Positions 14,333-36,087 of a stretch of 36,535 nt of DNA are shown here, in pieces; position 1 is the first letter of the stretch; each line of letters begins with the position of its first letter. This DNA comes from Chlorobiaceae bacterium (GTDB taxonomy: Bacteria > Bacteroidota > Chlorobiia > Chlorobiales > Chlorobiaceae), in assembly GCA_013334925.1 (NCBI GenBank), contig JAAXWP010000030.1, positions 1 to 36,535 on the forward strand, in the 5' to 3' direction. The position numbers and the translations under genes are program-made. Under the pieces are notes generated by a model that had not been told where the DNA came from, did not search any database, and worked only from the letters and a program-made list of their open reading frames with translations.

Positions 14333-14404
14333 GGTTCTGCTCGGTTAAATTGGCTGTGTGGCACCAGTTGCGGTGATGACCTTCGACTTCTTTCAAGTTA
14401 CTAA

Positions 14405-15051
14405 AACGCTTGCAAATAAAAAAGAGAATGGCAGCTGATTGCCTCGAAGTGAGTGAGTTTTACCATGTATCCGGTGTGCAGAAAACTTCCGGTTTTAGTT
14501 AGGGGTGATCCGTTGTCAGGAGATCCGTGTTGTCATACTTGTTATTTCGTGAGTGGCTTTATTTACCGGGGAAAAAATACGTCAATCTCAGATTGAGAGC
14601 TCTGGTGAGGTGGTGTCTGCTGTTTTGTTTTCAGGGGGTTTGCTGTTTGTTTTGTGTTGATTACTTGTTGTATGGGTGGAGTTGTTTGAGTATGAATTTT
14701 TTTCAAGAGCATGTAAATGCAATAAATAAAATAATATAATATCTATGCTATGGCTGGCGATAAAATTTTATGATTATTTTTATTGCGATTGACATTCATT
14801 ATGGGTATTATTTGTCTGTACGTAATTCTTACACTTGTCTCAAAAATGATATTGTGTGGATTACGTTATGTGTGCCCGCTGTATCGCAGTGATGCGTCCC
14901 CGTTCAGTCTCAGTTCTTCGTACCCTCAGTAGCTTCAGTTCTTCGTACCCGCTGTAGCCGTCGTTCTACGTACCCACCTTGTTTGTCGTAATCCGTACCA
15001 GTTGTAGTACCCTTTTTTGTAGCCAGAAAACTTTAACAACAGGAGTGTACT
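14405..15051. promoter_or_regulatory. Long AT-rich leader region upstream of the curli-like operon
   Basis: This intergenic region is AT-rich at about 14640-14870, unlike the flanking coding DNA, and ends with a set of 25-bp direct repeats. It must carry the promoter of the curlin gene at 15052. A 70-codon open frame at 14527-14739 is rich in Cys, Leu and Trp and looks non-coding. AT-rich leaders of this length are common for tightly regulated or acquired genes; no specific promoter was assigned. Confidence 0.5.
14889..15012 (+). repeat. Four to five imperfect 25-bp tandem direct repeats
   Basis: Units begin at 14913, 14938, 14963 and 14988, each exactly 25 bp, with a degenerate 24-bp unit at 14889. 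The first two begin with the identical 13-mer GTTCTTCGTACCC, the third with GTTCTACGTACCC, and the fourth has GTAATCCGTACC. CGTACC is the invariant core of the four clear units. The array ends 39 bp before the curlin start codon. The region is not an open frame, so a cis-regulatory role is the simplest reading. Confidence 0.85.
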
Positions 15052-15873
15052 ATGCGTACAATCAAATCGGCGTTGCTGGTTCTTGCTGCCTATGCCGTCT
15101 TCAACGCCCCAGCGTTTGCTGAAGACACGGTCATCCTTGACCAGCTTGGAACTTTAGACACAGCCAATATCAATCAGACAGGAGGGTTCGGAGGACCTCT
15201 GCACGGTGTTTTCAATCATGCAACCGTCACACAGGATGTGGATTCGTTCCAGGAAACGGCAACCATTATCCAGAATGACACCGGAATTCATTATGGTGGC
15301 AACGTCGCTAACGTTTATCAGGATGGTGCTGGAGACACCGCTAATGTGACCCAGAACGGCAGACTCGGTGAAGCCAATATCCAGCAGAATGCCGGAAGTT
15401 TGCTCAACACCGCAGAGATCAATCAGTTAGTGGGAAGTAACAGTGAACTGGCTGGAATTGTACAAACCGGTAGTCAAAATGGAGCCCTGATCAACCAACA
15501 GGGTTCAGACAACGAAGGTACGATCACTCAGAGGGGTGATAATGGCGTTGCCGAAATTGATCAGGCGCTCGGAAGCATGGGCAACTTTGCCGGTATTGAA
15601 CAGACTGGTTCGACTGATAATGCTCTTATTGCACAGACGGGTGTAAACAATTTCGGCACAGTGACGCAGAACGGCAACAATGACACGGCCAGGATGCAGC
15701 AGACCGGTTCTTTGAACAGGTCGGTGATTGTTCAGACTGGTAATACCGACAATGCCACCGTGACTCAGATTGGCATGAACAATGATGCTACTGTGACCCA
15801 GCTCGCTAACAACAAAACCGCGAATGTTAACCAGATAGGTAACAATCACTTTGCAAACGTAGTCCAGAACTGA
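15052..15873 (+). CDS. Curlin-repeat amyloid subunit (major curlin-like)
   Basis: This is a secreted beta-solenoid amyloid subunit of a curli-like fibre. The 273-residue protein has a signal peptide ending AFA-23 and no cysteine. The mature part is built of about 20 half-repeats of roughly 11 residues with an inward-facing Gln, such as TVTQIGMNNDA, NVTQNGRLGEA and VIVQTGNTDNA. This matches the curlin pattern of Gln-x-Gly-x-x-Asn repeats and gives about ten full repeats, against five in E. coli CsgA. The ribosome site AGGAG at 15041-15045 fixes the start. It is the first gene of the operon with the second curlin, csgF and csgG. Confidence 0.88.
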   Translation: MRTIKSALLVLAAYAVFNAPAFAEDTVILDQLGTLDTANINQTGGFGGPLHGVFNHATVTQDVDSFQETATIIQNDTGIHYGGNVANVYQDGAGDTANVTQNGRLGEANIQQNAGSLLNTAEINQLVGSNSELAGIVQTGSQNGALINQQGSDNEGTITQRGDNGVAEIDQALGSMGNFAGIEQTGSTDNALIAQTGVNNFGTVTQNGNNDTARMQQTGSLNRSVIVQTGNTDNATVTQIGMNNDATVTQLANNKTANVNQIGNNHFANVVQN

Positions 15874-15895
15874 ACAGATAGCTCTGTCCAGGGAT

Positions 15896-15938
15896 GATCG
15901 GGGGGATCGGCGCTTCTCAAAAAGCGATCTCCCCGATC
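15896..15938 (+). other. Strong hairpin between the two curlin-like genes
   Basis: The left arm GATCGGGGGGATCG (with CGCTT) pairs with the right arm AAGCGATCTCCCCGATC, giving a GC-rich stem with one mismatch and a small bulge. No T-tract follows. In this position it could set the ratio of major subunit to downstream secretion proteins by partial termination or by protecting the 3' end of the first message. Confidence 0.65.
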
Positions 15939-15990
15939 GCGAATGTTCTGCCCATTTGTCTTTTGTAAACACTGAACCATTGAAACAAAC

Positions 15991-16443
15991 ATGAACAAAA
16001 CGATCATGCTCCTGACCGGCATCGGTTTTCTGGCAATGGTCGGTTATTCATCAGGCGAATGCGGCGGGCCGGAAGAGTTGAAAGCAAAAACTGCCGGAGA
16101 TCTTATCGTTCCGGAAAATTCGGGAGAAAAAATGTCTGACAAAAACTATCAGGACGAAATCCTGTCCAACCCGAGAACGAGTGGCGAGGCTCGTGCCAAA
16201 TCGACAGAATCGGGCGGAAATACCGCGATCATCATACAGAACGGGTCACGCAACAAATCGAGCGTGAAACAGGCCGGAAACAACAATACGGCCGAACAGA
16301 CGCAAACCGGTATGGAGAACGAGCTTCAACTGGAGCAGACCGGCAAGAATAACAGATCTCAGGAAACCCAGACCGGCAAGCATAACCGGAAAGTTATACG
16401 GCAGAATGATTCGGAAACGGTTATCGAGCAGGTAAATCCCTGA
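15991..16443 (+). CDS. Second curlin-repeat protein (minor/nucleator-like)
   Basis: This 150-residue protein has an N-terminal hydrophobic signal (MLLTGIGFLAMVGYSSG). A ~50-residue polar, non-repetitive segment follows, then about six curlin half-repeats: AIIIQNGSRNKS, SVKQAGNNNTA, EQTQTGMENEL, QLEQTGKNNRS, QETQTGKHNRK. The repeats are basic and polar, unlike those of the gene upstream. A shorter, charged partner beside a long repeat subunit resembles the CsgB/CsgA pairing, so a nucleator role is inferred. The lone Cys pair near residue 24 does not sit in a clear lipobox. Confidence 0.8.
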   Translation: MNKTIMLLTGIGFLAMVGYSSGECGGPEELKAKTAGDLIVPENSGEKMSDKNYQDEILSNPRTSGEARAKSTESGGNTAIIIQNGSRNKSSVKQAGNNNTAEQTQTGMENELQLEQTGKNNRSQETQTGKHNRKVIRQNDSETVIEQVNP

Positions 16444-16448
16444 AAGTC

Positions 16449-16901
16449 ATGAAGAACGCGGAACCTGAGCGAGCGGATAAAAGCTTGCAGCTGATGGCCA
16501 TGTCGTTATGGTGTCGATCACTGGCCATTGGTCTCTCTTGCCTGGCGATTCTGACAGGTATGCCATCGGTCGCACAGGCGAGCAATTTCACCTTTCAGGG
16601 CCAGAATGCAGCGCTTTTTCCAAACACGAATCCCGGCAATATGTCGGTGTTCATGAACAGCGTGGAAAAGCCTCCGACGAAAACAGAGACGGTAAATCCG
16701 GCATCCATGATAGAACAGTCCATCATCAGTCAGCTCAGTTCTAAAATATACAATGACATTTTCAAGGGGGCAGCCGTCTCGGGGTATTACGATCTTGGTG
16801 ATGGAAGCGCAATCAGCTACTCTCGAAATGCCGGGACTATCAAGGTGGACATTACCGATCCTTCGACAGGAACAACGAGTTTGACCGTTCTCGATCAATA
16901 A
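16449..16901 (+). CDS. csgF: CsgF-like curli assembly protein
   Basis: CsgF caps the CsgG pore on the cell surface and places the nucleator. The 150-residue protein has a long n-region and a signal peptide ending VAQA before SNFTFQGQNAALFP; an in-frame Met at 16494 would shorten the n-region. The C-terminal part has SMIEQSIISQLSSKIYNDIF, then YSRNAGTIKVDITDPSTGTT, matching the CsgF pattern of a helix followed by a twisted sheet. The CsgG-inserting N-terminal motif (FxNPxFGG in E. coli) is only loosely kept as NPGNMSVFMNS. It starts 5 nt after the second curlin gene and ends 8 nt before csgG. Confidence 0.82.
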   Translation: MKNAEPERADKSLQLMAMSLWCRSLAIGLSCLAILTGMPSVAQASNFTFQGQNAALFPNTNPGNMSVFMNSVEKPPTKTETVNPASMIEQSIISQLSSKIYNDIFKGAAVSGYYDLGDGSAISYSRNAGTIKVDITDPSTGTTSLTVLDQ

Positions 16902-16909
16902 CATGACGC

Positions 16910-17809
16910 ATGGACATGAGAAAGACTGCCGTGTTACTTCTGATATCGAGTTTACTGACGCTTGGGGGATGCTCTTACCAGTCATTGTACAACAATGCGC
17001 TGGTCTCTGAAGCCCACGTCACCGACAGGACGAAAGCTACCGAGATTCTGATGGCGTTGCCTGTTCCGACACGTCCGATTCCAGTGGTGGTTTACGACTT
17101 TCAGGATCAGACCGGTCAGTTCAAGAATAACTCCCAGTATACGGATTATTCCAGCGCGGTGACGCGAGGGGGTTATTCGATTCTGGTGAAAGCGCTGCTC
17201 GATTCAGGCAAGGGCAACTGGTTCATGGTGGCTGAACGGGGAGGGCTTAAAAATCTGCTTCAGGAGCGGCAGATCGTAAAGGTGATGAGGGGCGAGTACC
17301 TTGGTCCGAACAATGAAAAGCTGCCCAGTCTTCCTCCGATGATGTATGGCGGCACGCTTATCGAGGGCGGTATTGTCTCATATGATTCGAATATCATGAC
17401 TGGTGGGCTGGGCGCGGTGTATCTGGGCATCGGTGGAAGTGCTCAGTATCGCAGGGATCTGGTTACCGTCTATCTCAGGGCAGTCAGTGTCGAGAGTGGC
17501 AGGGTTCTTGTTGCGGTCAACAGCTCCAAGACGATCTATTCCGTTTCGGTTGACGCCAACGTACTGAAGTATCTGACCGTAGGCAATCTGTTTCAGTCCG
17601 AGGCTGGATTCACTGTCAATGAGCCTGTCCAGCTTGCGGTTCGGCAGGCAATCGAAACCGCTGTCTACTCACTGATCATGGAAGGCCAACTCAGGCATTT
17701 GTGGGAATTCAGTGACATGGGTATGGGAGCTCAGGTTGTTGCGGAATATCTCGCACGTCGCGATGGTAAAACAGCGCAGGCGAAGGTATCGGAAAAAGCT
17801 GCTCATTGA
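16910..17809 (+). CDS. csgG: CsgG-like curli secretion channel lipoprotein
   Basis: CsgG is the nonameric outer-membrane pore that exports curlin subunits. The 299-residue protein has a signal peptide with lipobox LGG-C21. The CsgG core is clear: VVVYDFQDQTGQFK, then GNWFMVAERGGLKNLLQERQ, then GGTLIEGGIVSYDSN, and the ladder TVYLRAVSVESGRVLVAVNSSKTI. The C-terminal helix PVQLAVRQAIETAVYSLIMEG is also typical. It is the last intact gene of the operon; a decayed insertion sequence begins 25 nt after its stop. No csgE was found in the window. Confidence 0.93.
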   Translation: MDMRKTAVLLLISSLLTLGGCSYQSLYNNALVSEAHVTDRTKATEILMALPVPTRPIPVVVYDFQDQTGQFKNNSQYTDYSSAVTRGGYSILVKALLDSGKGNWFMVAERGGLKNLLQERQIVKVMRGEYLGPNNEKLPSLPPMMYGGTLIEGGIVSYDSNIMTGGLGAVYLGIGGSAQYRRDLVTVYLRAVSVESGRVLVAVNSSKTIYSVSVDANVLKYLTVGNLFQSEAGFTVNEPVQLAVRQAIETAVYSLIMEGQLRHLWEFSDMGMGAQVVAEYLARRDGKTAQAKVSEKAAH

Positions 17810-17878
17810 TCCTTGAAATACTACCCGAAATCTGGACAGCTGGTTAAATTGGAATAACCCAAAACTTCAGCAGTCTCC

Positions 17879-19277
17879 ATGAAGCAAACACGTCGTAAAT
17901 TCACGCCTGAATTCAAAACCTAAGTCGTTCACGAAGCCCTCAGCGAAAGACTATCACTGACCGAACTCGCCCTGAAGCATGAGCTTCATCCATCCCAGAT
18001 CGCCCAATGGAAGTGTGATTTCCTCGACAACGCCTCAGAAATCGTCTCGAAAGGCGATAAAGCTCAGAAAACCGAGCAGGACTATCAGCAAGAGAGCAAA
18101 AAACTCTGTAAAACCATCGGCCAGTTGAAGGTCGAGGTAGACTGGCTCAAAAAAAATGCAGTCCTGAAATCCCTGTCAGAACGACGCTCCATGGTTGAGC
18201 AAGAACATACCGAAATCAGTATGCAGCGACAATGCGAGCTGCTTTCAATCCATCGCTCCAGCCTTTATTACCAGCCGAAGAAGACCTCGAAACTGAATCG
18301 TGAGCTCATGCGGATGATTGACGAGCAGTATCTGCTGAGACCTGACTATGGCGTTTATCGCATGTGACAGTGGATGACCAGAGTTCAACCTCAAACGGGT
18401 ACGAAGGCTTTATCGCCTCATGGGTCTGGATGCCATTGGTCCCAAGCCGAACACCTCGAAACCGGCACCAGGCTACAAGGTTTATCCGTATCTGTTGCGT
18501 GGCCTAAAAATTGAACAAAGCGACCAAGTCTGGGCAACTTATATCACGTATGTGCCGATGCCCACAGCTTCATGTACCTGATGGCCGTCATTGACCTTAA
18601 GAGGCGTTATGTGCTGAACTGGTCGGTATCGAATACCATGGAAGCCAAATGGTGTGTCGAGGTTTTTCTTGAAGCTGTTTGATTACACGGCGCACCAAAG
18701 ATTGTCAACACCGATCAGGGTAGCCAGTTCACCAGCGAACTCTTCACCGAGGCTGTCATCAAAAAGGCTGACTCGAAGCTAAAGGCGGAGCGATCGACAA
18801 TGTCGACGATGATCGTCTTGCTTCCCGAGCTGTTCCTTGAATTGCCGGTATTGGCGCCGAACGGGGCATGCTTCGGGTAGCCGAGATGCTCATCCATTTC
18901 AGCCTCAAGCGCCTGTTCGATGAATCGCTTTTTGAGGGCGTCAAGCAGACCGGCCCTTGTCAAACAGGGCCTGAGGTCCGCCGCTTTCCCGGATCAGCTG
19001 GTCAATCAGCGCCTTCTGGCTGGTGGGAATCTGTTCTTTCTTTCTGGCCATAGTCATTCTCCTTTTTACATGAGAGGAAATTATGACCGTTTACACACTT
19101 TATCTCACAAACTCGTACATTTACCTGAATCCTCCGAAAGACGGCCTCGAACTTTACTAAGGGCTGAAGCAGTGGCTCAATGACAACAACACGGATCGTC
19201 GCCATACCTCGCTTGACGGAGATGTTCCGGCAACGGTTTACTATGCTAAAAAACCTCAGGCGACCGAAGCGGCCTGA
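17879..19277 (+). pseudogene. IS3-family transposase (orfA-orfB), multiply broken
   Basis: The 5' part reads MKQTRRKFTPEFKT, a stop at codon 15, then the HTH segment LTELALKHELHPSQIAQWK and the leucine-zipper region of orfA. OrfB follows with HRSSLYYQP and a stop after YGVYRM, then in other frames PKPNTSKPAPGYKVYPYLLRG. The DDE core shows QVWATYITYVPM, where the first catalytic Asp is Tyr, and NTDQGSQFTS, where the second Asp is kept. The frame is cut near AIDNV (~18803) and resumes at YLNPPKDGLELY after ~19105. It ends with VYYAKKPQATEAA at 19277. Confidence 0.9.
18805..19105 (-). pseudogene. IS256-family transposase 5' fragment nested in the IS3 remnant
   Basis: On the minus strand from 19057, after an AGGAGA ribosome site, the frame reads MTMARKKEQIPTSQKALIDQ and then RESGGPQALFDK. 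A frameshift follows, and the sequence resumes as GLLDALKKRFIEQALEAEMD and EHLGYPKHAP, with NSRNSSGSKT, the hallmark N-terminus of IS256/Mutator transposases. Only about 85 codons remain; the DDE domain and the far end are missing. The probable terminal repeat (GTGTGTAAACGGTCATAA, minus strand) lies at ~19079-19098, just outside the gene start, where the IS3 frame resumes. Confidence 0.85.
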
Positions 19278-19306
19278 AAAAACTTGGTTTTGTCAAACAG
19301 CTGCCC

Positions 19307-19823
19307 TTCAAATGGGGATTGCCTCAGTTTCCTGCGTGCTGCGAATTTCTCCTCATACAGCGTAACCGGTTCTTCAAGACAAGACTGCGTGTGTTTATTA
19401 TCGGCCGTCGAAACAGCTCGGTTTGATATTCCGTTACGATGCCTCATTCGATTTTCGGAAAAAAGAAAACTTTCTGCACGATAAACTCCCTGGATGCTAC
19501 GTTTTTACGGCCTATCGCTTGCCTTGCTTGGCCAAAACTCCCTATATTTAGCGTAGTCGCATTTCCTGTTGTACCACGCCCCCACATGTTTGAGCAGTGC
19601 CGCTTACTGAACCTCAAACTATTGGGTATGCATTCTGTCCAGCCTTCTCGTTCAGCGAGTGGTCTCTCGCTTCTCCCGGTTGTACTTATCGTGTTATTCT
19701 GTGCCATTGGTTCATATATGGCCGGATTATTCTATCACAGATACTCCAGATTTCCGGAGAATCCTATGTCCGGGTTCTTTTAGTAACCGCTGTATCAAAA
19801 TAATATATGGTACAGGGTGGTTG
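19307..19823. other. Gene-free spacer after the IS remnant
   Basis: No gene is supported in these ~517 bases. Open frames exist on both strands (for example 19439-19783 plus and 19444-19707 minus) but none has a ribosome site, domain motif or natural composition. No csgE-like sequence was recognised here. Confidence 0.45.
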
Positions 19824-20108
19824 ATGGTTACGTGTGGTTTGCTGAAATCAAATTTTTCGGATATGGAGCGGATTCATGTTCAGGTCTATATTGCAGTTGT
19901 GCTGATCCTTTCGTTTCTGATTGCGGCACTGGTATTCAATGTGGTTCCGAACGAAAGTGATTTTTACTATCAGGGTGACTATGTGACTCATCTGTTTCAC
20001 AAACCAGGGTGCCTCTATTACGGTTGTAAATCATGCACTGTCATATTCAGGGAGAGGGAAGATGCGATCAAAGCAGGATATCTCCCTTGCAAAATTTGTA
20101 ATCCATAA
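19824..20108 (+). CDS. Small membrane-anchored protein with Ada-type Cys metal-binding tail
   Basis: The protein (94 aa from 19824, or 81 aa from ATG 19863, MERIHVQ) has one transmembrane helix (VYIAVVLILSFLIAALVF). A C-terminal module follows: THLFHKPGCLYYGCKSCTVIF, then REREDAIKAGYLPCKICNP. This resembles the small Cys4 zinc-binding unit seen in Ada and many nuclease-linked proteins (xFHxxxC ... Ax AGYxPCxxC). The role is unknown. A longer open frame extends upstream, but that part reads as non-coding. Neither start has a good ribosome site. Confidence 0.6.
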   Translation: MVTCGLLKSNFSDMERIHVQVYIAVVLILSFLIAALVFNVVPNESDFYYQGDYVTHLFHKPGCLYYGCKSCTVIFREREDAIKAGYLPCKICNP

Positions 20109-20344
20109 ATCATTTTGAGTGCGTTCATGTTCGAAAACCGTTGCTTTTTCAACCTCGATTTATGACGGCCTGAAGCCGCCTCTTATCAGTTCATCAGTCT
20201 CACTTCCCGCTGCCGTATTATCCCCATCTTTGCATTTTTGGTAGTTTTCTCGCTCGGAGTCCTATTCCCTGTTGGGTTATTTCTATCCTCCTTCACGCTT
20301 TTCGTGGTTTCGTTTCTTTCAACAATTCTCAATAATGATCCACA

Positions 20345-21484
20345 ATGGCAAATTCTGAACATTTGGCAATACTCAAGGAGGGGGTTGCAGTATGGAATCG
20401 GTGGAGGCGTGATCATGCGGATATTTTGCCTGATTTGACTGGAGCACGACTTGATGGACGTAACTTGCACAGAGTGAATGTCGGGGGTGCCGATCTGAGA
20501 GGCGCCGACCTGAAGCATGCAGATTTACGGGAAGCCTATCTTGGCGGGGCGAACCTGAGCGGCGTCAATTTCCAGAAAGCGCAAATGACGGAGGCCGGCC
20601 TGGCGGACGCGAATCTGTCAGAGGCAAATCTGAACAAAGCAAATTTGCGGGGGGCATATCTGAAAGGTGCCTGGTTGATGGGGTCGTATCTGAAATGCGC
20701 AAATCTGCTGGGAGTGGATTTTTCGGAAGCCAATTTGTCTGGTGCCAATCTGACAGATGCCGATCTGTCCCTGGCTGATCTTAGTGGAGTCAATCTGAAG
20801 TCGACCAATCTTTCTGGTGCCAATATGTTGGGTGCAAACCTGCAGAATGCCATCATAGGCGCCACCGTTTTTGCAAATATCGATCTCAGTGCTGTCAGGA
20901 GTCTCAGTAAAGCTAAACATGCAGGTCCTTCAGTCATCGGAATCGACACTCTTTTCAGATCTCAGGGCATGATTCCCGAAGTATTTCTGCGAGGTTGTGG
21001 AGCACCAGATCAGATCATTGAGTTTGCCAGATCGTTGTTGGGCAAACCCAATGATTACCAGGCTTGCTTTATCAGATGCGCTGCCCAGGACAAAGAGTTT
21101 GCCAAACGACTTCATGCAGACCTTCAGGAAAACAATGTCCGTTGCTGGTATGCCTTTGAGGATATAACTACCGGGGATGTACACGGGACGGGTATTGATG
21201 AGTTCGTCCAGATCACGAACAAGATAATTCTGATTTTGTCGAGCTATTCGGTACGGAGTGATTGGGCCGGTCAAGAGGTCGAACATGCATTACATCCCGA
21301 TGACGGGAAGCATGACGGTGCGTTGTTTCCGATTCGTCTGGATGAAGCCATTATGGATTGCAGCGCCGGATGGGCGGCCAAAGTCCGTCATCAGTATCAT
21401 ATCGCGGATTTTAGCGGATGGAGGGATGGCAAGACGTATGCTGATGCGATGGCGCATCTGTTGAGGGATCTGAAAATGAAGTGA
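20345..21484 (+). CDS. Pentapeptide-repeat / TIR-domain fusion protein
   Basis: Residues ~29-185 of this 379-residue protein are pentapeptide repeats of A(D/N)LxxA type forming a right-handed quadrilateral beta-helix. A linker follows (HAGPSVIGIDTLFRSQG, PEVFLRGCGAPDQIIEFARS). Residues ~238-375 are a TIR domain: CFIRCAAQDKEFAKRLHADL, RCWYAFEDITTGD, KIILILSSYSVRSDWAGQEV. E311 in WAGQEVE is the candidate catalytic Glu for NAD hydrolysis. The usual FISYSSxD motif is altered to FIRCAAQD, so activity is uncertain. Bacterial TIR proteins often act in phage defence or NAD signalling; that role is inferred. It stands alone, followed by a small open frame and a long hairpin. Confidence 0.88.
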   Translation: MANSEHLAILKEGVAVWNRWRRDHADILPDLTGARLDGRNLHRVNVGGADLRGADLKHADLREAYLGGANLSGVNFQKAQMTEAGLADANLSEANLNKANLRGAYLKGAWLMGSYLKCANLLGVDFSEANLSGANLTDADLSLADLSGVNLKSTNLSGANMLGANLQNAIIGATVFANIDLSAVRSLSKAKHAGPSVIGIDTLFRSQGMIPEVFLRGCGAPDQIIEFARSLLGKPNDYQACFIRCAAQDKEFAKRLHADLQENNVRCWYAFEDITTGDVHGTGIDEFVQITNKIILILSSYSVRSDWAGQEVEHALHPDDGKHDGALFPIRLDEAIMDCSAGWAAKVRHQYHIADFSGWRDGKTYADAMAHLLRDLKMK

Positions 21485-21527
21485 CGTTTTTTCCCGCCTG
21501 CTCAAGGAGCCTGGGTGACTGATACGT

Positions 21528-21638
21528 ATGGATAACCAGCATCAGAACAACAAGGCAGTTTCAGAAGCAGCGTCGACTGCGATATTTTCCGAAAAGGATG
21601 ACGAAGAGCATTCCTTTGCTTTTAAACCTTCATGTTGA
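21528..21638 (+). CDS. Possible 36-aa small protein downstream of the TIR gene
   Basis: A short frame starts MDNQHQNNKAVSEAA and ends FAFKPSC before TGA 21636-21638. It is polar and acidic, with natural codon composition and a single C-terminal Cys. An AAGGAG lies at 21504-21509, but the spacing to the ATG (18 nt) is too long for a normal ribosome site. It sits between the TIR gene and a hairpin. I cannot assign a function and it may not be translated. Confidence 0.25.
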   Translation: MDNQHQNNKAVSEAASTAIFSEKDDEEHSFAFKPSC

Positions 21639-21664
21639 AAAGCGGGCGGGTTTTCAAACCTGCC

Positions 21665-21706
21665 AATCAAGGATGGCGGACAGAGAAATGTCCGCCATCC
21701 TTGATT
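21665..21706. terminator. Long perfect hairpin between convergent genes
   Basis: An 18-bp perfect stem AATCAAGGATGGCGGACA pairs with its exact complement around a 6-nt GAGAAA loop. It lies between the rightward TIR gene and the leftward outer-membrane protein gene, where a bidirectional terminator would be expected. It lacks a clear T-run on the plus strand, so factor-independent termination is not certain. Confidence 0.6.
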
Positions 21707-21762
21707 GCTATTCAGCCAGATTTCAGAGATAGAGACGTTTTCACCCCAAGACTCTTCAGCGC

Positions 21763-22326
21763 TCAGAAGCTGTATCTTGCTCCAAGCAGGAACCGATGGC
21801 AGGTTACATCATCACTCAGGAGATTGAAGGCCGTGAAATAGCGATAGCCCAAATCGACCGTGATATTCCCGGTTGCCTTTATGCCGACACCAGTGCCGAC
21901 TTGCAGGCTCAATGCGTTCTCAGTTCTGTCGTCTTGTGAAGATTTTTTCAGCGTGATGCTCGTGCCACCGGCGCCAAGCATCAAATAAGGTCTGATAGAA
22001 GGGCTCGGGATGTCGTAATACACATTGGCCAGGTAAGAAAATAATTTTGCACGAACCGTATCACTGGTTGTCTTGTCGATCTTGTTTGTCTGGTAATTCA
22101 AGTTTGCTTCAAGCCGGAAATCGCTGATCTTCAGCCCTATCCCGCCATCTATTGTTACGCCAGTGTCATAACTTGTCTGAATCGGGGTTGTGAATGGTAT
22201 GGTTTCAGTATAGCTGGAAATGACACCTGTTCCGGTAGCAGTGCTTATATAAGGGGTGGCTGCAGACGCGATCGGTGAGAGAGAGCAGAAACCCGTTGCA
22301 ACTATTACCGCGATTCTCTTTTTCAT
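21763..22326 (-). CDS. Outer-membrane beta-barrel protein (OmpW/Omp25-like fold)
   Basis: The 187-residue product starts MKKRIAVIVATGFCSLSPIA, a signal peptide ending SAA. The mature part alternates polar and hydrophobic residues in short strands: TIDGGIGLKISDFRLEANLN, AKLFSYLANVYYDIP, IRPYLMLGAGGTSITL, NITVDLGYRYFTAFN. It ends in FLLGARYSF, the terminal aromatic signature of outer-membrane proteins. The start at 22326 is chosen over an upstream Met at 22431 because only it gives a signal peptide. The gene stands alone; the ligand or function is unknown. Confidence 0.82.
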   Translation of the reverse strand: MKKRIAVIVATGFCSLSPIASAATPYISTATGTGVISSYTETIPFTTPIQTSYDTGVTIDGGIGLKISDFRLEANLNYQTNKIDKTTSDTVRAKLFSYLANVYYDIPSPSIRPYLMLGAGGTSITLKKSSQDDRTENALSLQVGTGVGIKATGNITVDLGYRYFTAFNLLSDDVTCHRFLLGARYSF

Positions 22327-23016
22327 GGTTTGATAGGTTTGAGATTGGTAGAAATATCCAGAAACGGCACTTCTTTCAACTACACCCGCTTTCCATAAAA
22401 GAGTGCAGTCTGGCATGTGGCAGATTATCACTTATTGCGGCAACATGACAAATGACAAAAAAACTGCATTCATTAGCGTGAGCCAAGACATTCTCAGACA
22501 GCAAATTTTCTGAAGCAAGCCGTATGATATCAATTTTTCCAAAGGCTTGATTGTATATATGAATATATAGGATTTATGTGTGCTGTGAAAATATGGAGTT
22601 GAATCAGGGGCAGGAAATATCGAAATCATCAAGTGTGGCTGGGGTAATATTCGGATTGCCGCGATATTCCGATATGTAATACATTGATTCAGTCGATTCA
22701 GCGGGGAAGATCGATTCAATTTCGGATATTTCTGCTGATGGTATTGTTATAAACAGACGGCTCTGTTCTTGCACGCTTCATTTATGATGACGGTGCCTGT
22801 TCTTGTATATCTTTGAGACAGATTGTTGCTGGAATAATAAAATGACTGAAGATAACTGCCGAACGCCAGTCCGGAAACTGGCTGAATAACGGAGTTCATC
22901 AGGCTGTATATCAGATTCCACCATACAAGAGTGCCGGAAAAAGACCGACTTGAGCAAATGATAGAACTTGTCGCGGATGATGGGTAACCAGCTCCCCGGT
23001 CGCGGGATTTTATATG
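22327..23016. other. Gene-free AT-rich spacer
   Basis: These 690 bases contain no supported gene. Open frames on the minus strand (22432-22719 and 22778-23125) have no motif and the second overlaps a real gene. The promoter of the minus-strand outer-membrane protein gene must lie near 22330-22450. No other element was recognised. Confidence 0.45.
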
Positions 23017-23550
23017 CTAAGTATCTTTTTTTAAGGCAGATACTTCCGACTCCTCGCTGTTGACGTTCCGGTGGTACAGGTAAGCCGCCCAGAATATGAT
23101 CAGCAGTTCGACTCCGTATCCCCAATGGCGATGACTTTGCGCGTAATCCGGGGCGATAGAAAAGAGCATATTGTCACCACTCAATACGCTGTAGGAAAAA
23201 GGCGCAAACCAATACATTCTTCCGGATACGGTGTCGAGAAACATGTGAATGAAACCTCCGAGCGTGAACAGGAATGCTGAGACTGGCAGCTGGGATTTTC
23301 TGTCGAAGTGCAGCCAAAAAGCTGACGCAATCAATAACACAGCCCAGAATATGGGGTAATGGGTGATGTAGACATGATGATTGGTGCCAGCTTCATCAAA
23401 CAGAAAAAGGTACGCAAAATCAAAATCGGGCAAAACTGAGCCAAGAAGCCCCCAGAACAGGTACGTTTTATAGGATCTGATTCGATGCTTGTACACGTCA
23501 TACAAAAGGGTGCAGGTAATGAACCCTGCTGGTAAATGAGCGAATGTCAT
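23017..23550 (-). CDS. DUF457/YdjM-type membrane-bound metal-dependent hydrolase
   Basis: This 177-residue polytopic protein begins MTFAHLPAGFITCTLL and has LGSVLPDFDF, then NHHVYITHYPIFWAVLL, LGGFIHMFLDTVSGRMYWFA and a C-terminal transmembrane helix. Conserved His and Asp (HLP, LPDFD, HHVYITH, FIHMFLD) form the metal-binding set typical of the YdjM/DUF457 family of inner-membrane predicted hydrolases. The substrate is unknown. It has no operon partner. Confidence 0.8.
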   Translation of the reverse strand: MTFAHLPAGFITCTLLYDVYKHRIRSYKTYLFWGLLGSVLPDFDFAYLFLFDEAGTNHHVYITHYPIFWAVLLIASAFWLHFDRKSQLPVSAFLFTLGGFIHMFLDTVSGRMYWFAPFSYSVLSGDNMLFSIAPDYAQSHRHWGYGVELLIIFWAAYLYHRNVNSEESEVSALKKDT

Positions 23551-24112
23551 GGAGTTCCTGACGGCGTTCTGTCAATAAGTTAATCTGTTCATGATACGGC
23601 ACGTATCTCCCAACCCGGATCAGCAGCGTTTCGTTCAGATGAAGCAGGAATGCCTCATCCGTTTTTTGTGGCAGTAGATTCCAGCTTCCATGGAAGCTGC
23701 CCTTGGCTGTTCTGTCTGTTGACTGATAATTGTAAAATATGCGTGAAATATCAGAAAATCCAGGTATGCCTGGAAAACGCCCGATGGGCCCGCAATCTTT
23801 ATTGATTCAGTCGACGTGGCCGGGTTTGTTTTTGCCAATGAGCGGCGAGCTTATCTGAATCCGGGAGGGTACTGGTTGCCGGAGCACAAAATTGATTCGC
23901 TGGCTACCTGTAATGATAATTTAAGATTATACTTGTCTTTTCCGCTCGGGTTATGGCAGGGCGGTCAATGCAGGCCAGTTTTGCCGGCGTCTCGACCTCT
24001 GGGGTCTTCATGTCGGGGTATCTTGTTTCTTCGGCGAAAATTGATCAGAATGACATTGGCGGTAGTATGGTGCTGACATAAATCGATACGGTCAATCGCC
24101 GGAATAATAACT
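23551..24112. other. Gene-free spacer with a perfect palindrome
   Basis: No gene is supported. Two dyads were seen: an 18-bp perfect palindrome CAGCTTCCATGGAAGCTG at 23682-23699 and a small hairpin CCAGG-tatg-CCTGG at 23760-23773. A plus-strand open frame at 23816-24076 shows no domain and was not called. Confidence 0.45.
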
Positions 24113-24577
24113 GTGACGGCACATAAACTTATCTTGCCCATGGATAGACAGCAAAAAGCTCTCGATCTTTTCAGACATCGATGTAACTGCAGTCAGGCAG
24201 TGTTTACTGCCTATCGGCAGCCAGAACATCTGGATGAAGAGAGCGCATTGAAAATTGCCACGATTTTTGGCGGGGGCGGTGCCGGTACAGGAAATGGACT
24301 GTGTGGTGCTGTCGCGGGCGCTCTTATGGCCTTATCGATGCGCTATGGTATGGGGGATCTGCAGGCCACCGACGCAAAAAGGGCAACCTATGAGTTGGGC
24401 TGCAAGTTCATGGATGATTTTGCGGCGGCTATGGGCTCGTGCTCCTGCGAAGCGATTCTCGGGATAAACATCGGTACTCCCGAAAATCTTCTGAAAGCAA
24501 GGGAGATGAAGCTCTTTGAAACACGATGCGAGGATGCGGTCAAAACGGCCTCGCAGTTACTGGAGCGATTGTTGTAG
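24113..24577 (+). CDS. C_GCAxxG_C_C family protein
   Basis: This 154-residue soluble protein belongs to the C_GCAxxG_C_C family (putative redox or metal-binding, function unknown). The order of conserved features is visible. CNCSQAVF lies at ~25-32, followed by the glycine-rich loop IFGGGGAGTGNGLCGAVAGA, which contains the CGA motif, and then LGCKFMDDFAAAMGSCSCEAIL. The C-terminal Cys is in FETRCEDAV. The start may instead be the Met at codon 10 (MDRQQKALDLF). Members often lie near electron-transfer or metal-handling genes; here it is isolated. Confidence 0.82.
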   Translation: MTAHKLILPMDRQQKALDLFRHRCNCSQAVFTAYRQPEHLDEESALKIATIFGGGGAGTGNGLCGAVAGALMALSMRYGMGDLQATDAKRATYELGCKFMDDFAAAMGSCSCEAILGINIGTPENLLKAREMKLFETRCEDAVKTASQLLERLL

Positions 24578-24927
24578 AGTTAACGTGCCTCATCGGGTGT
24601 ACCTTCAAATATTTGATTTTCTCTCTGGGAATCGGCTGTGAACGTGATCCATATGCAGTTTCGGATCACGATCACGGCCATACATGCAGTGATACACCGA
24701 TTACAGTGACGGGTGATCGGGAGCAATGGTCGGCATGCCGTGGTGTTGCCGATTCTTCACTTGCCTAATTCTCTTATCTTTCCGAACTTAGAGGTAATAG
24801 CTCTCGACAGATTCACCAGCAACTGCATGGTACATAGCCAGAGTTGCCGAAGCATCGGTCATGCTACTTGTTCTTGCGTATTTCGGAGTGAGAAAAGCAT
24901 GAAAAAATCAATTACAGGAGGGTAGAC
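24578..24927. other. Spacer with a small dyad
   Basis: No gene is seen in these 350 bases. A dyad CGTGATCC-N12-GGATCACG lies at 24643-24670. It has no T-run and could be an operator or part of the 3' structure of the upstream gene. Confidence 0.4.
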
Positions 24928-25143
24928 GTGAGCAGTGTAGAGCAGGCCAAGGCCGAACTTCTTTCAGTCTGGATCAAACGCTTTGAATGCCTGGAAAGCG
25001 GAGATTGCGAAGATTCATATGAAAGCATCGCAGAGAATCTGATCAAACGAATCACCAGAGACAACCCCGACTTCAGCGCTTTCGATTTCTACAACGATAA
25101 TTTCGAAGCGTATAATCCCTACATGGAAATAAGCGGTCGTTGA
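24928..25143 (+). CDS. Small acidic hypothetical protein, 71 aa, GTG start
   Basis: The GTG at 24928 is preceded by a strong ribosome site AGGAGGG (24916-24922, 5-nt spacing), which supports the start. The product is acidic and soluble, with SSVEQAKAELLSVWIKRFEC at the N-terminus and a C-terminal segment rich in Asp, Phe, Asn and Tyr (FDFYNDNFEAYNPYMEI). No known domain was recognised. Codon use is like that of real genes in the window. Confidence 0.65.
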   Translation: MSSVEQAKAELLSVWIKRFECLESGDCEDSYESIAENLIKRITRDNPDFSAFDFYNDNFEAYNPYMEISGR

Positions 25144-25426
25144 TCTGTTGATCGGGTAGTCCAGGATGCAGCGGGACTCCGAGCAATACAGTCCATTACA
25201 GGTCCTGCCGGCTCACTCTGTGCCGGTCGGGCCGTATTTGTTCTTGTGTACGGTCAGCAGCTTTGTGCCCATGCAGCATCCGACTGTTTCTATCTCGTGG
25301 TACCTGCGCATCCGGTAACCGTACGGTTACGGTTTTATGAACTGTGGATTTATCTTCTTTTTGAGCCGCCATCGATCCGGCAAACCGCAAACCCCATAAC
25401 AGCCACCATGTTGTCGTCCATTCCGT

Positions 25427-26347
25427 ATGGAGGTTAAGCAGGAAACAGCCCAGGAGTATCGCCGGCGCATTTGCCTGGCCATGAATCACATCAGCAGGCA
25501 CCTCGGTGAGGATCTTTCGCTTGATGAAATAGCTGCGGTCGCTTCGTTTTCATCCTTTCATTTTCACCGGATTTTTCGGGTTGTCGTCGGTGAAACCGTA
25601 GCCGCTTTCACGCGGCGGCTCAGGCTTGAATCTGCAGCTCACCGGCTGCTTGCAAAAGATGGAGGTAATATCACCACTATCGCTTATGCATTAGGGTTTT
25701 CGAGTTCCCAGAACTTCGCCAAAGCATTCCGTCAGCATTATGGGCTCTCCCCGTCAGCATTCAGAAAAAGCAAGAACGGAAACATCTCCTGCAAGCATGA
25801 AAACGTTTTGTCGTTGAGAAGCGAGTATACTCACTTCATGGGGTCAGCGGATTTGCCAATGCAAACATGGAGAACAGATATGAAAGCGGAAATCAGGGAG
25901 TTACCGGACTTTTTCGTTGCGTATGTCCGAAAGATCGGGCCTTACGGCAAAGAGACCTGTGGTCAGGCCTTCGGCGAGCTGCTGAGATGGGCCGGTCCGA
26001 AAAACCTTCTTGGCAAGGCCCCTGTATTCGGGGTCTATTGGGACAATCCCAAGATCACCTCACCGGAGAATTGCCGTATCGATGCCTGTGTTGGCGTTCC
26101 ATCAGGCACCGCTACGGATGGGCCGGTCGGATTGCAGACGATTCCAGGAGGGAGCTATGCAGTATGTGGATTTGAACTGGATGAGAATGGTTTCAGGCAG
26201 GCCTGGGATGAAGCTTTCGCCTGGCTTGTGGCAAAAGGGTATCAATGCGACGACAAGCCGTGTTATGAGCTTTACCACAATAATGCCGCAGAGCATCCCG
26301 AAGGTAAATGGATCGTGGATGTCTGCATTCCGTTGAAAACAGTCTGA
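25427..26347 (+). CDS. AraC-family regulator with GyrI-like effector-binding domain
   Basis: This is a transcriptional regulator of the Rob/GyrI-like architecture. Residues ~10-110 hold the two AraC helix-turn-helix motifs: LSLDEIAAVASFSSFHFHRIF and TTIAYALGFSSSQNFAKAFRQHYG. Residues ~147-305 form a GyrI-like small-molecule-binding domain (EIRELPDFFVAYVRKIGPYG, YWDNPKITSPENCRIDACVG, IPGGSYAVCGFE, PEGKWIVDVCIPL). Such proteins usually answer to xenobiotics or stress. No adjacent target gene is evident. A weak GGAG-like site is near the start. Confidence 0.9.
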   Translation: MEVKQETAQEYRRRICLAMNHISRHLGEDLSLDEIAAVASFSSFHFHRIFRVVVGETVAAFTRRLRLESAAHRLLAKDGGNITTIAYALGFSSSQNFAKAFRQHYGLSPSAFRKSKNGNISCKHENVLSLRSEYTHFMGSADLPMQTWRTDMKAEIRELPDFFVAYVRKIGPYGKETCGQAFGELLRWAGPKNLLGKAPVFGVYWDNPKITSPENCRIDACVGVPSGTATDGPVGLQTIPGGSYAVCGFELDENGFRQAWDEAFAWLVAKGYQCDDKPCYELYHNNAAEHPEGKWIVDVCIPLKTV

Positions 26348-26730
26348 ACCTGGCTTTCTGCTTCGGGTGTGTTTTTCTGATGTTCAAACTTTTCGAGCCT
26401 GTTTTCGAATTGGTTCGAGCCGTTGTTCTGAATGTTCAGCAGGTGTTCAGTAGATGTTTCACCCTGCTTCGGATATATCCGGTTCTCTGCGAGGTGGATT
26501 CACTTAACCTTGCCGTTCAACAGGTGACGGGACAATCCGCAACAGAGGCGTTGGTTCATGTGAGTTCGGGAGGCGTTTCTGGTATGTCGATTCGTTGTTC
26601 TTGCTCGGCATACGCTGCTGATCATGGTCTCGAGCCCACTCATCCCGAAGCATGAACAAAACAAAAAGAGAAGCCCCGTTTGTCCTGATCCGGGGCTTCT
26701 CTTTTGTGGTTGGCGAAAGAACGGTTTCTC
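26348..26730. other. Spacer between the AraC gene and dnaK
   Basis: These 383 bases lie between convergent genes. Apart from the dnaK terminator at 26664-26705, no gene is supported; plus-strand frames here have no motif. Confidence 0.5.
26664..26705 (-). terminator. Intrinsic terminator of dnaK
   Basis: A 15-bp perfect stem AAAAGAGAAGCCCCG/CGGGGCTTCTCTTTT with a 12-nt loop lies 25 nt beyond the dnaK stop. On the minus strand it is followed by TTTTTG, and on the plus strand by CTTTTG, so it can also act bidirectionally. Confidence 0.92.
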
Positions 26731-34274: not shown

Positions 34275-35186
34275 TCATGGCCTGGCCGTGATCGTGACCC
34301 GCTCGATTGCCGTTTTCGGTGCATTATGAATAGCGCAGGACGCCCCCGGAAGGTGCAGCATGCCACCAGTCACGGCACAGAGCAGACCATTTACTGTGTC
34401 CAGTGCGCCACCGGCTGCGCTGCCAATGGAATTGAAAGCCCCACCCGCAACACCTCCTACGGTATTGAGAGCTCCTCCGGCGACCCCGCCCACCGAATTG
34501 AGAACACCTCCGGCGGCACTGCCGATCGTGTTCAATGCGCCACCGGCCACGCTGCCCAGGGCATTGAAAGCGCCTCCGGCGACTCCGCCAACGGTATTGA
34601 AAACACCTCCAGCAACTCCGCCAATCATGTCGGCCGCACCCTTCGCGACGCCGCCGACCAGGTTGACCGGAGCCTGCATGAAGGGGAGTGTCTCAACGAG
34701 ATTGTTCATGGCGAGCTGGGATGCGGGAGCGAAGCCGCTGGCGATCTTGCCGATGGTATCGATAGGGTTGAGCCGTCCAGCCTGGACTCTCGATACGATG
34801 TTTGCCGCACCGGAAGGAAGCTTGTTCACGACATTGTAACCGATGGTCTGGGCGTAGGTGATGAATCCGGGGATATTCAGGCCGAGAACGAGCCTTCTCA
34901 GGGTTTCAGCCCTCGAAATAACCCGAATGGTTCCCTCCTTGACGATGACCGTCTGGCAGGCAAGGCGACCGCCCTCCTGGAAGAGCTTGTCGGAAATGAA
35001 GGCCTTCTCTTCATCGCTTGGCTGGGACAGGCAATCCGCACCCTCGCGGACATAGACGAAACAGCTCTGGCAAATGCCGTTACCTCCGCAGATGTAGCCG
35101 ATATGGGCCTTGTTCTGCTTGGCTGCGTTGAGGAGCAGGTCGCCGACCTGGGCTTCGCAAGGTCTGTCGTTGATATAGATGATCAT
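34275..35186 (-). CDS. Chlorosome envelope [2Fe-2S] protein (CsmI/J/X family) with hendecad-repeat tail
   Basis: This 303-residue chlorosome-surface protein has a plant/adrenodoxin-type ferredoxin domain at ~1-95. Cys33, Cys39 and Cys42 (ICGGNGICQSC) plus Cys77 give the CX5CX2C...C set. A middle region (~98-176) follows. Residues 178-265 then hold eight perfect-length 11-residue repeats, such as GGVAGGVFNTV and GSAAGGALDTV. Family members are usually ~220-245 aa, so the repeat block accounts for the extra length. In the chlorosome these proteins are thought to control energy transfer through redox quenching. I cannot say which of CsmI, CsmJ or CsmX it is. Confidence 0.88.
   Translation of the reverse strand: MIIYINDRPCEAQVGDLLLNAAKQNKAHIGYICGGNGICQSCFVYVREGADCLSQPSDEEKAFISDKLFQEGGRLACQTVIVKEGTIRVISRAETLRRLVLGLNIPGFITYAQTIGYNVVNKLPSGAANIVSRVQAGRLNPIDTIGKIASGFAPASQLAMNNLVETLPFMQAPVNLVGGVAKGAADMIGGVAGGVFNTVGGVAGGAFNALGSVAGGALNTIGSAAGGVLNSVGGVAGGALNTVGGVAGGAFNSIGSAAGGALDTVNGLLCAVTGGMLHLPGASCAIHNAPKTAIERVTITARP
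34392..34655 (-). repeat. Eight in-frame 33-bp repeats encoding an 11-residue unit
   Basis: Codons 178-265 of the chlorosome protein encode eight successive units of consensus G-(G/S)-(V/A)-A-G-G-(A/V)-(F/L)-N-(T/S/A)-(V/I/L), with no insertion or deletion between units. The first unit (GGVAKGAADMI) is most divergent. Third-base variation between units shows the array is not a very recent expansion. Confidence 0.95.
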
Positions 35187-35311
35187 GGCAGTGGAATTTG
35201 CATTGAGAAACCGGCTCTATGAAATCGTACCTATGAACAGCTTACTGCATTGTAATTATAATATAATCAAAATACCCCAGAAGCGAGGTGGGGGGAGGTA
35301 GTATGGTCTCG

Positions 35312-35351
35312 AAAAGAGGCTGCCCCGAATCACTTCCGGGACAACCTCTTT
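35312..35351 (-). terminator. Hairpin after the 227-aa chlorosome gene
   Basis: On the minus strand AAAGAGGTTGTCCCGG pairs with CCGGGACAACCTCTTT-like sequence (arm AAAGAGGCTGCCCC, with G-U pairs). CTTTTC follows. It lies 53 bp beyond the stop of the gene at 35404 and before the start of the 303-aa chlorosome gene at 35186, so the two genes need not share one transcript. Confidence 0.7.
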
Positions 35352-35403
35352 ACAGGAGAGCTCAGACCGATGCCGTCATGCGCATCGAATCAGGTTGTCG
35401 TCT

Positions 35404-36087
35404 TCAGTTGCAGACGACGGTGTTTTCTTCATGAAGTTGAAGCACTTCGGGAGAAACCTTCACTTTGCCAGCGTCACAGTTGCATGCGGTTGATTTCGGA
35501 ACTTCAGCCCCTGCTGTTGCCTTGCCGTTGACCTCTACGGCGCCGGTGGTTGCCGGTTCTGCAGTCGTTGTTGCCGGGGCTGCACCGAAAGCGGACTGGA
35601 TTGCATCGATGACCAGCTGAATGGCGTCACCGATCGCGGCTACCACATCCGAGATCAGCTCAAGCGGATTTACCTGGTGACCCTCCATATCGCGACGTGC
35701 CTGGAACGCAATAGTGTCAGTGAACTTCTCGGCTGCTTCCCATCCCATTTTCCCCATGTAGGCAGGCACCTGCCAGGGAGTGTTCAGGGTCATCCGCGCC
35801 GCCTCCTCGACGGTCGTCAGGATACTGATTTTACCAGGCTTTTCGATCGTCGTCTGACAGGCCATCCTGGTTCCTTCACTGATAAGCCCGTCGGAGAGCA
35901 TGGCTTTCTCTGCGTTCGTCATGGGAGAGAGCAGATCTGCACCTTCGAGAACCTTGACGTAGCAGGTCTGACAGAGGGCATTGCCGCCACAGAAATAACC
36001 GATATGGCTGTGGCTGGCGCGGGCAACGTCAAGCAATCTATCGCCGGTCTTGGCACTGCATTCCCGGTCGTTGATCGTGATGTTCAT
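35404..36087 (-). CDS. Chlorosome envelope [2Fe-2S] protein (CsmI/J/X family)
   Basis: This 227-residue protein is a paralogue of the downstream neighbour. The N-terminal ferredoxin domain has Cys33, Cys39, Cys42 (FCGGNALCQTC) and Cys77 in RMACQTTIEKPG. The C-terminal domain (~98-180) has AARMTLNTPWQVPAYMGKMG and DVVAAIGDAIQLVIDAIQSA, an amphipathic envelope-type segment. A Thr/Ala/Glu-rich linker and a Cys-containing tail (STACNCDAGK, ending TVVCN) follow. Its length matches CsmJ or CsmX of green sulfur bacteria; I leave the symbol open. Confidence 0.9.
   Translation of the reverse strand: MNITINDRECSAKTGDRLLDVARASHSHIGYFCGGNALCQTCYVKVLEGADLLSPMTNAEKAMLSDGLISEGTRMACQTTIEKPGKISILTTVEEAARMTLNTPWQVPAYMGKMGWEAAEKFTDTIAFQARRDMEGHQVNPLELISDVVAAIGDAIQLVIDAIQSAFGAAPATTTAEPATTGAVEVNGKATAGAEVPKSTACNCDAGKVKVSPEVLQLHEENTVVCN

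Follow-up and report, generated by a model that had tools for sequence, protein, structure and literature searches.

The curli (type VIII secretion) systems of Alphaproteobacteria, which are known to lack csgC, csgD and csgE (Dueholm and co-workers, PMC3521004), are the closest described relatives of the locus reported here. Export without CsgE is mechanically plausible, since Escherichia coli cells lacking CsgE still secrete curli if CsgG is overproduced (PMC6957492). In E. coli, residues V3, Q5 and Y6 of the CsgA motif VVPQYG are held in a crevice of CsgG formed by I121, L172, L236 and W237 (PMC6957492), and an N22-like leader is an exception among curli subunits (PMC10192328). The genes considered here, csgA–csgB–csgF–csgG at positions 15052–17809, lie in a stretch of 36,535 nucleotides, hereafter the window, from a Chlorobiaceae bacterium (GenBank assembly GCA_013334925.1, contig JAAXWP010000030.1). 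They are confirmed as an intact four-gene curli set in a green sulfur bacterium, and we put the probability that they form a horizontally acquired, CsgE-less curli operon at about 85%. The elements of the operon are as follows.

15052–15873, plus strand: csgA, major curlin subunit, 273 aa (Curlin_rpt; a Sec signal peptide, then 21 curlin strands)
15991–16443, plus strand: csgB-like minor subunit, 150 aa (a non-curlin N-terminal part, then ~3.5 curlin repeats)
16147–16218, plus strand: 24-residue conserved box of the minor subunit, NYQDEILSNPRTSGEARAKSTESG (profile comparison)
16449–16901, plus strand: csgF, 150 aa, with the N-terminal pore plug altered to FQGQNAALFPNTNPGN (Pfam CsgF, alignment)
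16910–17809, plus strand: csgG, lipoprotein outer-membrane secretion pore, 299 aa (Pfam CsgG, match to a solved structure, tree)
17144–17149, plus strand: codons of CsgG D79-Y80, aligned with the N55-F56 constriction of mature E. coli CsgG

The first-pass annotation of this DNA had proposed two curlin-repeat proteins, CsgF and CsgG in tight order, and both the open reading frames and their Pfam families bear this out. PF07012 (Curlin_rpt) matches the csgA product in eight stretches (E = 4.9e-21) and the csgB-like product with E = 2.4e-9, while PF03783 (CsgG) matches the last gene product (E = 3.2e-52), whose alignment to the E. coli CsgG structure spans 255 residues (E = 4.6e-49, 170 bits). 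The CsgF of the window is a clear orthologue of proteins that occupy the same slot in relatives and pass the Pfam cut-off. The operon adjoins pscD (PF10657, E = 6e-86), which identifies the host as a green sulfur bacterium. Profile searches of the window genome (2.73 Mb in 101 contigs, 100% complete) placed curlins in this operon only, and CsgG in a single copy.

CsgE gave no match in the window genome in a profile search that recovered the E. coli control, and none of the 86 Chlorobiaceae genomes reached the cut-off, E. coli and six CsgG-bearing Bacteroidota being positive. The missing csgE, first remarked on in the window, thus holds up in a profile search of the genome and of the family, and the absence is real and a trait of the lineage. 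The reported lack of CsgC stands as well: CsgH and CsgC were not found above the cut-off in ten and eleven curli-bearing genomes, respectively, the window genome included. CsgD belongs to the huge LuxR family. In the comparison genomes, CsgE was detected in none of seven Alphaproteobacteria and in all six Bacteroidota tested. Since curli of the alphaproteobacterial branch normally lack CsgE, the absence would have been inherited with the transferred operon rather than produced by local loss; CsgE, which Gammaproteobacteria and Bacteroidota have but which is missing here as in Alphaproteobacteria, is not strictly a defining component of curli. Two other accounts of the absence were rejected, namely displacement of csgE by the transposase downstream, as no relative has csgE at that site, and a tie to the loss of the CsgA N22 leader, as CsgE-bearing Bacteroidota are likewise without the leader.

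The origin of the operon can be read from CsgG and CsgF. Outside the family, the closest CsgG relatives are alphaproteobacterial (64, 61, 57 and 51–52% identity), as compared with 41–51% for those of Bacteroidota. In the CsgG tree the Chlorobiaceae form one clade (support 100/100) nested among Alphaproteobacteria; the nesting is supported at 96/97 with four alphaproteobacterial loci (L066, L067, L068 and L135) and at 100/99 when all twelve are included. Grouping of Chlorobiaceae with other Bacteroidota in one clade is rejected (approximately unbiased (AU) test, p = 2e-5). The CsgF tree agrees (99/98; Bacteroidota clade rejected, AU test, p = 4e-4), albeit with the Chlorobiaceae not quite forming one clade. 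Both proteins therefore fall within the alphaproteobacterial clade, as would be expected of CsgE-less curli of the alphaproteobacterial type. One alphaproteobacterial locus, L135, lies on a contig of 806 kb, in a genome taken from the class to which the alphaproteobacterial metagenome-assembled genome (MAG) L066 belongs. The locus has the order csgA–csgA–csgB–csgF–csgG, as in Chlorobiaceae; its CsgF begins SPLVFQGQNAALFPGANPSDTALLMNSV and its minor subunit carries SDYQSQILNNPELNDRARAES, followed by curlin repeats. Because CsgG and CsgF nest among Alphaproteobacteria and the operon order recurs in one of them, the operon was most likely acquired horizontally, as a CsgE-less whole, from the alphaproteobacterial side by a progenitor of some Chlorobiaceae, with loss or spread thereafter. 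The direction of transfer is read from the nesting and from how several MAGs were assigned. A plasmid search returned no CsgF, and CsgG only at less than 60% identity.

The operon is present in 10 of the 86 Chlorobiaceae genomes. Curlins pass in nine of these; in the tenth, G008, CsgG and CsgF of this type lie at the edge of a contig that stops inside csgF. The order csgA–(csgA)–csgB–csgF–csgG is kept at most of the Chlorobiaceae loci, with an extra csgA behind csgG at two (L057 and L061). In one genome, G065 (L057, L058 and L059), csgG is present twice and csgA at least four times. A second CsgG-family protein, mostly of ~245 aa, occurs in many curlin-less Chlorobiaceae (G001, G004, G005, G020, G041–G050 and others; L001–L028). 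In the window, as in G018, the operon occupies the pscD–dnaK interval; a second common context is seen in G036, G065 and G080, and a third in G001, G008 and G009, and no further gene adjoining the operon is common to the different contexts. In members of the same genus without csg genes the pscD–dnaK interval ranges from ~140 bp to several kb, which marks it as a variable slot. The ratio of non-synonymous to synonymous substitution rates (dN/dS) between L056 and L063 is ~0.14 for csgG, ~0.15 for csgF and ~0.26 for csgA, indicating purifying selection. The curli operon is a real, accessory, lineage-wide CsgE-less system in Chlorobiaceae.

Counting of the CsgA strands gives 21 of the form psi-x-Q, mostly 11 residues apart, that is ~10.5 two-strand repeats where E. 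coli CsgA has 5, in keeping with the earlier estimate of about twice as many. By sequence alignment the protein matches Pontibacter CsgA (entry 8c50; E = 5.4e-20), and its AlphaFold model is a stack of strands (predicted local distance difference test (pLDDT) 73.5, predicted template modelling score (pTM) 0.73). It is acidic, with 23 D/E against 5 K/R. The mature protein starts EDTVILDQLG, right after the signal peptide; the N22 signal VVPQYG was not found at the CsgA N-terminus, so that N22 targeting of the E. coli type is not indicated. In nearly every CsgA the signal peptide is followed directly by a curlin strand psi-x-Q-x-G, which has the spacing of V3-P-Q5-Y-G7, and this first strand may do the work of the N22 leader.

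The pore was compared residue by residue with E. coli CsgF and CsgG sequences; within the part that aligns, the CsgG sequence used matches the solved chain. The lipobox cysteine and the crevice Trp237 are conserved in all CsgG proteins compared; elsewhere in the crevice, L172 and L236 are retained in nearly all Chlorobiaceae and I121 is replaced by T. The positions of N55-F56 are occupied by D/E-Y in all 11 Chlorobiaceae proteins and in four of five near Alphaproteobacteria, and by N/S/T-W/F in 28 Bacteroidota. The change of N55 to D/E therefore predicts an acidic ring in CsgG; a one-residue insertion leaves the placement of residue 51 uncertain. As for the CsgF plug, F5 and N9 are kept, F7 is changed to G and R8 to Q, and N17 at the constriction is S or G (read against PMC6957492), changes which imply that the outer ring may be wider.

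The box of the minor subunit follows a non-curlin pattern, QDEVLSNP..SGAARA, common to the Chlorobiaceae and their near alphaproteobacterial relatives, in which the box-bearing protein always sits between csgA and csgF. A box profile built from Chlorobiaceae only picks up alphaproteobacterial proteins encoded at the same position of the operon (E = 3e-6 and 8e-5). The minor subunits of the alphaproteobacterial loci L066 and L067 keep the box without clear curlin repeats, and it is missing from more distant CsgE-less Alphaproteobacteria.

Gene identity, gene order, the absence of CsgE, CsgC and CsgH, descent and selection were computed, and from the genes we infer secretion, fibre formation, control of stoichiometry and a role in adhesion. 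CsgA and the CsgB-like protein would reach the periplasm by Sec, in line with the signal peptides seen. The major subunit and the minor, nucleating or anchoring one would then cross the lipoprotein pore CsgG unfolded, with CsgF lining the outer mouth, and assemble outside into beta-solenoid amyloid fibres tethered to the cell through CsgB–CsgF–CsgG. The gating and escorting role of CsgE would be filled by no homologue, the pore probably being diffusion-driven with a changed constriction, as in CsgE-less Alphaproteobacteria. By analogy, a role in adhesion or biofilm formation would be our default guess.

Vertical heritage from Bacteroidota or Chlorobiota, with csgE lost locally, perhaps when a transposase landed after csgG, would fit the occurrence of CsgE in other Bacteroidota curli (the genomes tested; PMC3521004) and the decayed transposase directly behind csgG. 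It is nevertheless extremely unlikely, as both trees reject the Bacteroidota grouping, CsgE is found in none of the 86 family genomes, including those without the transposase remnant, and Chlorobiaceae CsgG is 57–64% identical to that of the near Alphaproteobacteria as against 41–51% to that of Bacteroidota. It is also very unlikely that CsgG and CsgF form a general export pore for other cargo, the curlin-repeat proteins being incidental or non-amyloid: CsgG-like proteins of the ~245-aa type without curlins in many Chlorobiaceae, and others in marine phages, speak for such a pore, but the CsgG type described here is found in Chlorobiaceae only beside curlins, except in G008 with its truncated contig, and the curlin genes are intact, often occur in duplicate and evolve under purifying selection. 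As to function, the first-pass annotation had suggested that the fibre might hold extracellular sulfur globules at the cell surface, and the host, as pscD attests, is indeed a green sulfur bacterium. Extracellular sulfur globules are, however, a general trait of green sulfur bacteria, and with the operon in so few of the Chlorobiaceae the fibre is not generally needed for them; curlins are missing from 77 of the 86 genomes. This role, unsupported where most green sulfur bacteria do without the operon, is exceedingly improbable.

Alternatively, the box of the minor subunit may be a substitute escort or gate that has taken over the function of CsgE. Its conservation in Chlorobiaceae and near CsgE-less Alphaproteobacteria, always between csgA and csgF, would agree with this, and its retention in L066 and L067 without clear repeats suggests that it matters apart from nucleation. 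Yet the more distant CsgE-less Alphaproteobacteria lack the box, so that CsgE-less export does not generally depend on it; this region is modelled with low confidence (pLDDT ~55), and the minor subunit is itself probably exported. Such a substitution is unlikely. A wider scheme for the curli of Chlorobiaceae and near Alphaproteobacteria, quite improbable in our estimation, would combine an acidic CsgG ring with an SNP box that docks at CsgG/CsgF and takes over both escort and sealing from CsgE, thereby joining secretion and nucleation in one protein. Returning to the horizontally acquired, CsgE-less curli operon, several points weigh against it. The Pfam score of CsgF (24.9 bits, E = 2.4e-5) is slightly below the cut-off of 25.8 bits. 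A Foldseek search with the CsgA model returned no solved structure at a significant level, the curli structure 8c50 ranking 37th with E = 0.57, so that the fold of CsgA depends on sequence and on a model of middling confidence. The acidic ring of CsgG would be expected to repel the acidic CsgA. It is possible that an unrelated gatekeeper is encoded elsewhere in the genome, and the fibre itself is a prediction from the genes.

The following features flank or separate the genes.

14640–14888, no strand assigned: AT-rich upstream region, 31% G+C, likely promoter zone (base composition)
14910–14975, plus strand: 25-bp tandem direct repeat TCAGTTCTTCGTACCCNCNGTAGC, 2.6 copies, before csgA (pattern matched in 0 of 100 shuffles)
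15893–15945, plus strand: strong RNA hairpin in the csgA–csgB spacer, without a T run (-27.5 kcal/mol, z -4.2)
17880–18370, plus strand: frameshifted IS3-type transposase-like remnant, directly 3′ of csgG (read by eye)

The leader at 14889–15051, previously described as AT-rich, has a measured 48% G+C; the AT-rich part is the region upstream of it, at ~14640–14888. The best sigma-70-like match, at 14783–14811, is weak (9/12) and not above chance. The tandem repeat may possibly be a regulator site; the sequence upstream of csgA at locus L055 showed no similarity to it by eye. A strong hairpin precedes csgB at each of the nine Chlorobiaceae loci that were read, the stem sequences being unrelated between groups; z ranges from -2.1 to -6.8 for the hairpin pieces, which were chosen after folding, and from -2.0 to -5.3 for whole spacers (single-base shuffles). 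No hairpin was found in csgA1–csgA2 spacers, and no known RNA families around the operon. An intrinsic terminator was considered and rejected, as the window hairpin lacks a T run and a hairpin followed by T8 occurs only in the alphaproteobacterial L066. Lying after the last csgA, the hairpin probably favours CsgA over CsgB, via mRNA stabilization or attenuation, and would thus allow CsgA output to exceed that of CsgB.

The pscD–dnaK slot of the window (G000) spans 14333–26730 and holds the csg genes, insertion sequence (IS) remnants, a pentapeptide–TIR protein and others. The last of the named proteins (20345–21484, plus strand) combines pentapeptide repeats with a C-terminal TIR domain and has a possible role in defence or signalling. 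A Pfam scan of 18125–18364 alone, within the remnant behind csgG, gave no match; an IS256-like transposase-like remnant, read by eye, lies further downstream (18715–18963, minus strand). At 34275–36087 (minus strand) two adjacent proteins have 2Fe-2S ferredoxin domains, one of them with a long Gly/Ala-rich repeat; they may be chlorosome envelope proteins of the CsmI/CsmJ type.

In the open literature, to which our survey was confined, no link between curli and Chlorobi, Chlorobium or Chlorobaculum was found. As a kind, CsgE-less curli are already known from Alphaproteobacteria; what is new is the group of hosts, the transfer and the set of coordinated changes. CsgE-less Alphaproteobacteria (PMC3521004; L135, L066 and L067) are likewise without CsgE, CsgC and CsgD and provide the nearest CsgG and CsgF relatives, L135 sharing the gene order, the minor-subunit box and the CsgF plug of the Chlorobiaceae. 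They belong to another phylum, and CsgH is found in many of them (PMC3521004), but neither here nor in the two near Alphaproteobacteria tested. The E. coli system (csgBAC–csgDEFG) has curlin repeats, CsgF and the CsgG lipoprotein pore in common with the present one, but here a single operon A–B–F–G is found, C and E are not, the N22 motif VVPQYG is missing, CsgA is twice as long, F7, R8 and N17 of CsgF are changed and N55-F56 of CsgG has become D-Y. Bacteroidota curli, for example those of Chryseobacterium, have CsgG and CsgF homologues and subunits that also open with a curlin strand after the signal peptide; they differ in having CsgE (six of six tested) and a CsgG of ~460 aa with a long C-terminal part, 41–51% identical. 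Of marginal relevance are the CsgG-family genes, ~42% identical, of marine phages (Melnitz and HTVC008M; H1–H6: MZ577098, KC465899). Curli are thereby extended to green sulfur bacteria by a clear horizontal route from Alphaproteobacteria, providing a first candidate for amyloid-based attachment in these organisms, of possible importance for life in mats, biofilms and consortia. With its coordinated departures from E. coli (no CsgE, CsgC or CsgH, no N22, a changed CsgF plug, an acidic constriction and a new box), this small four-gene module makes the question of CsgE-less curli export directly testable.

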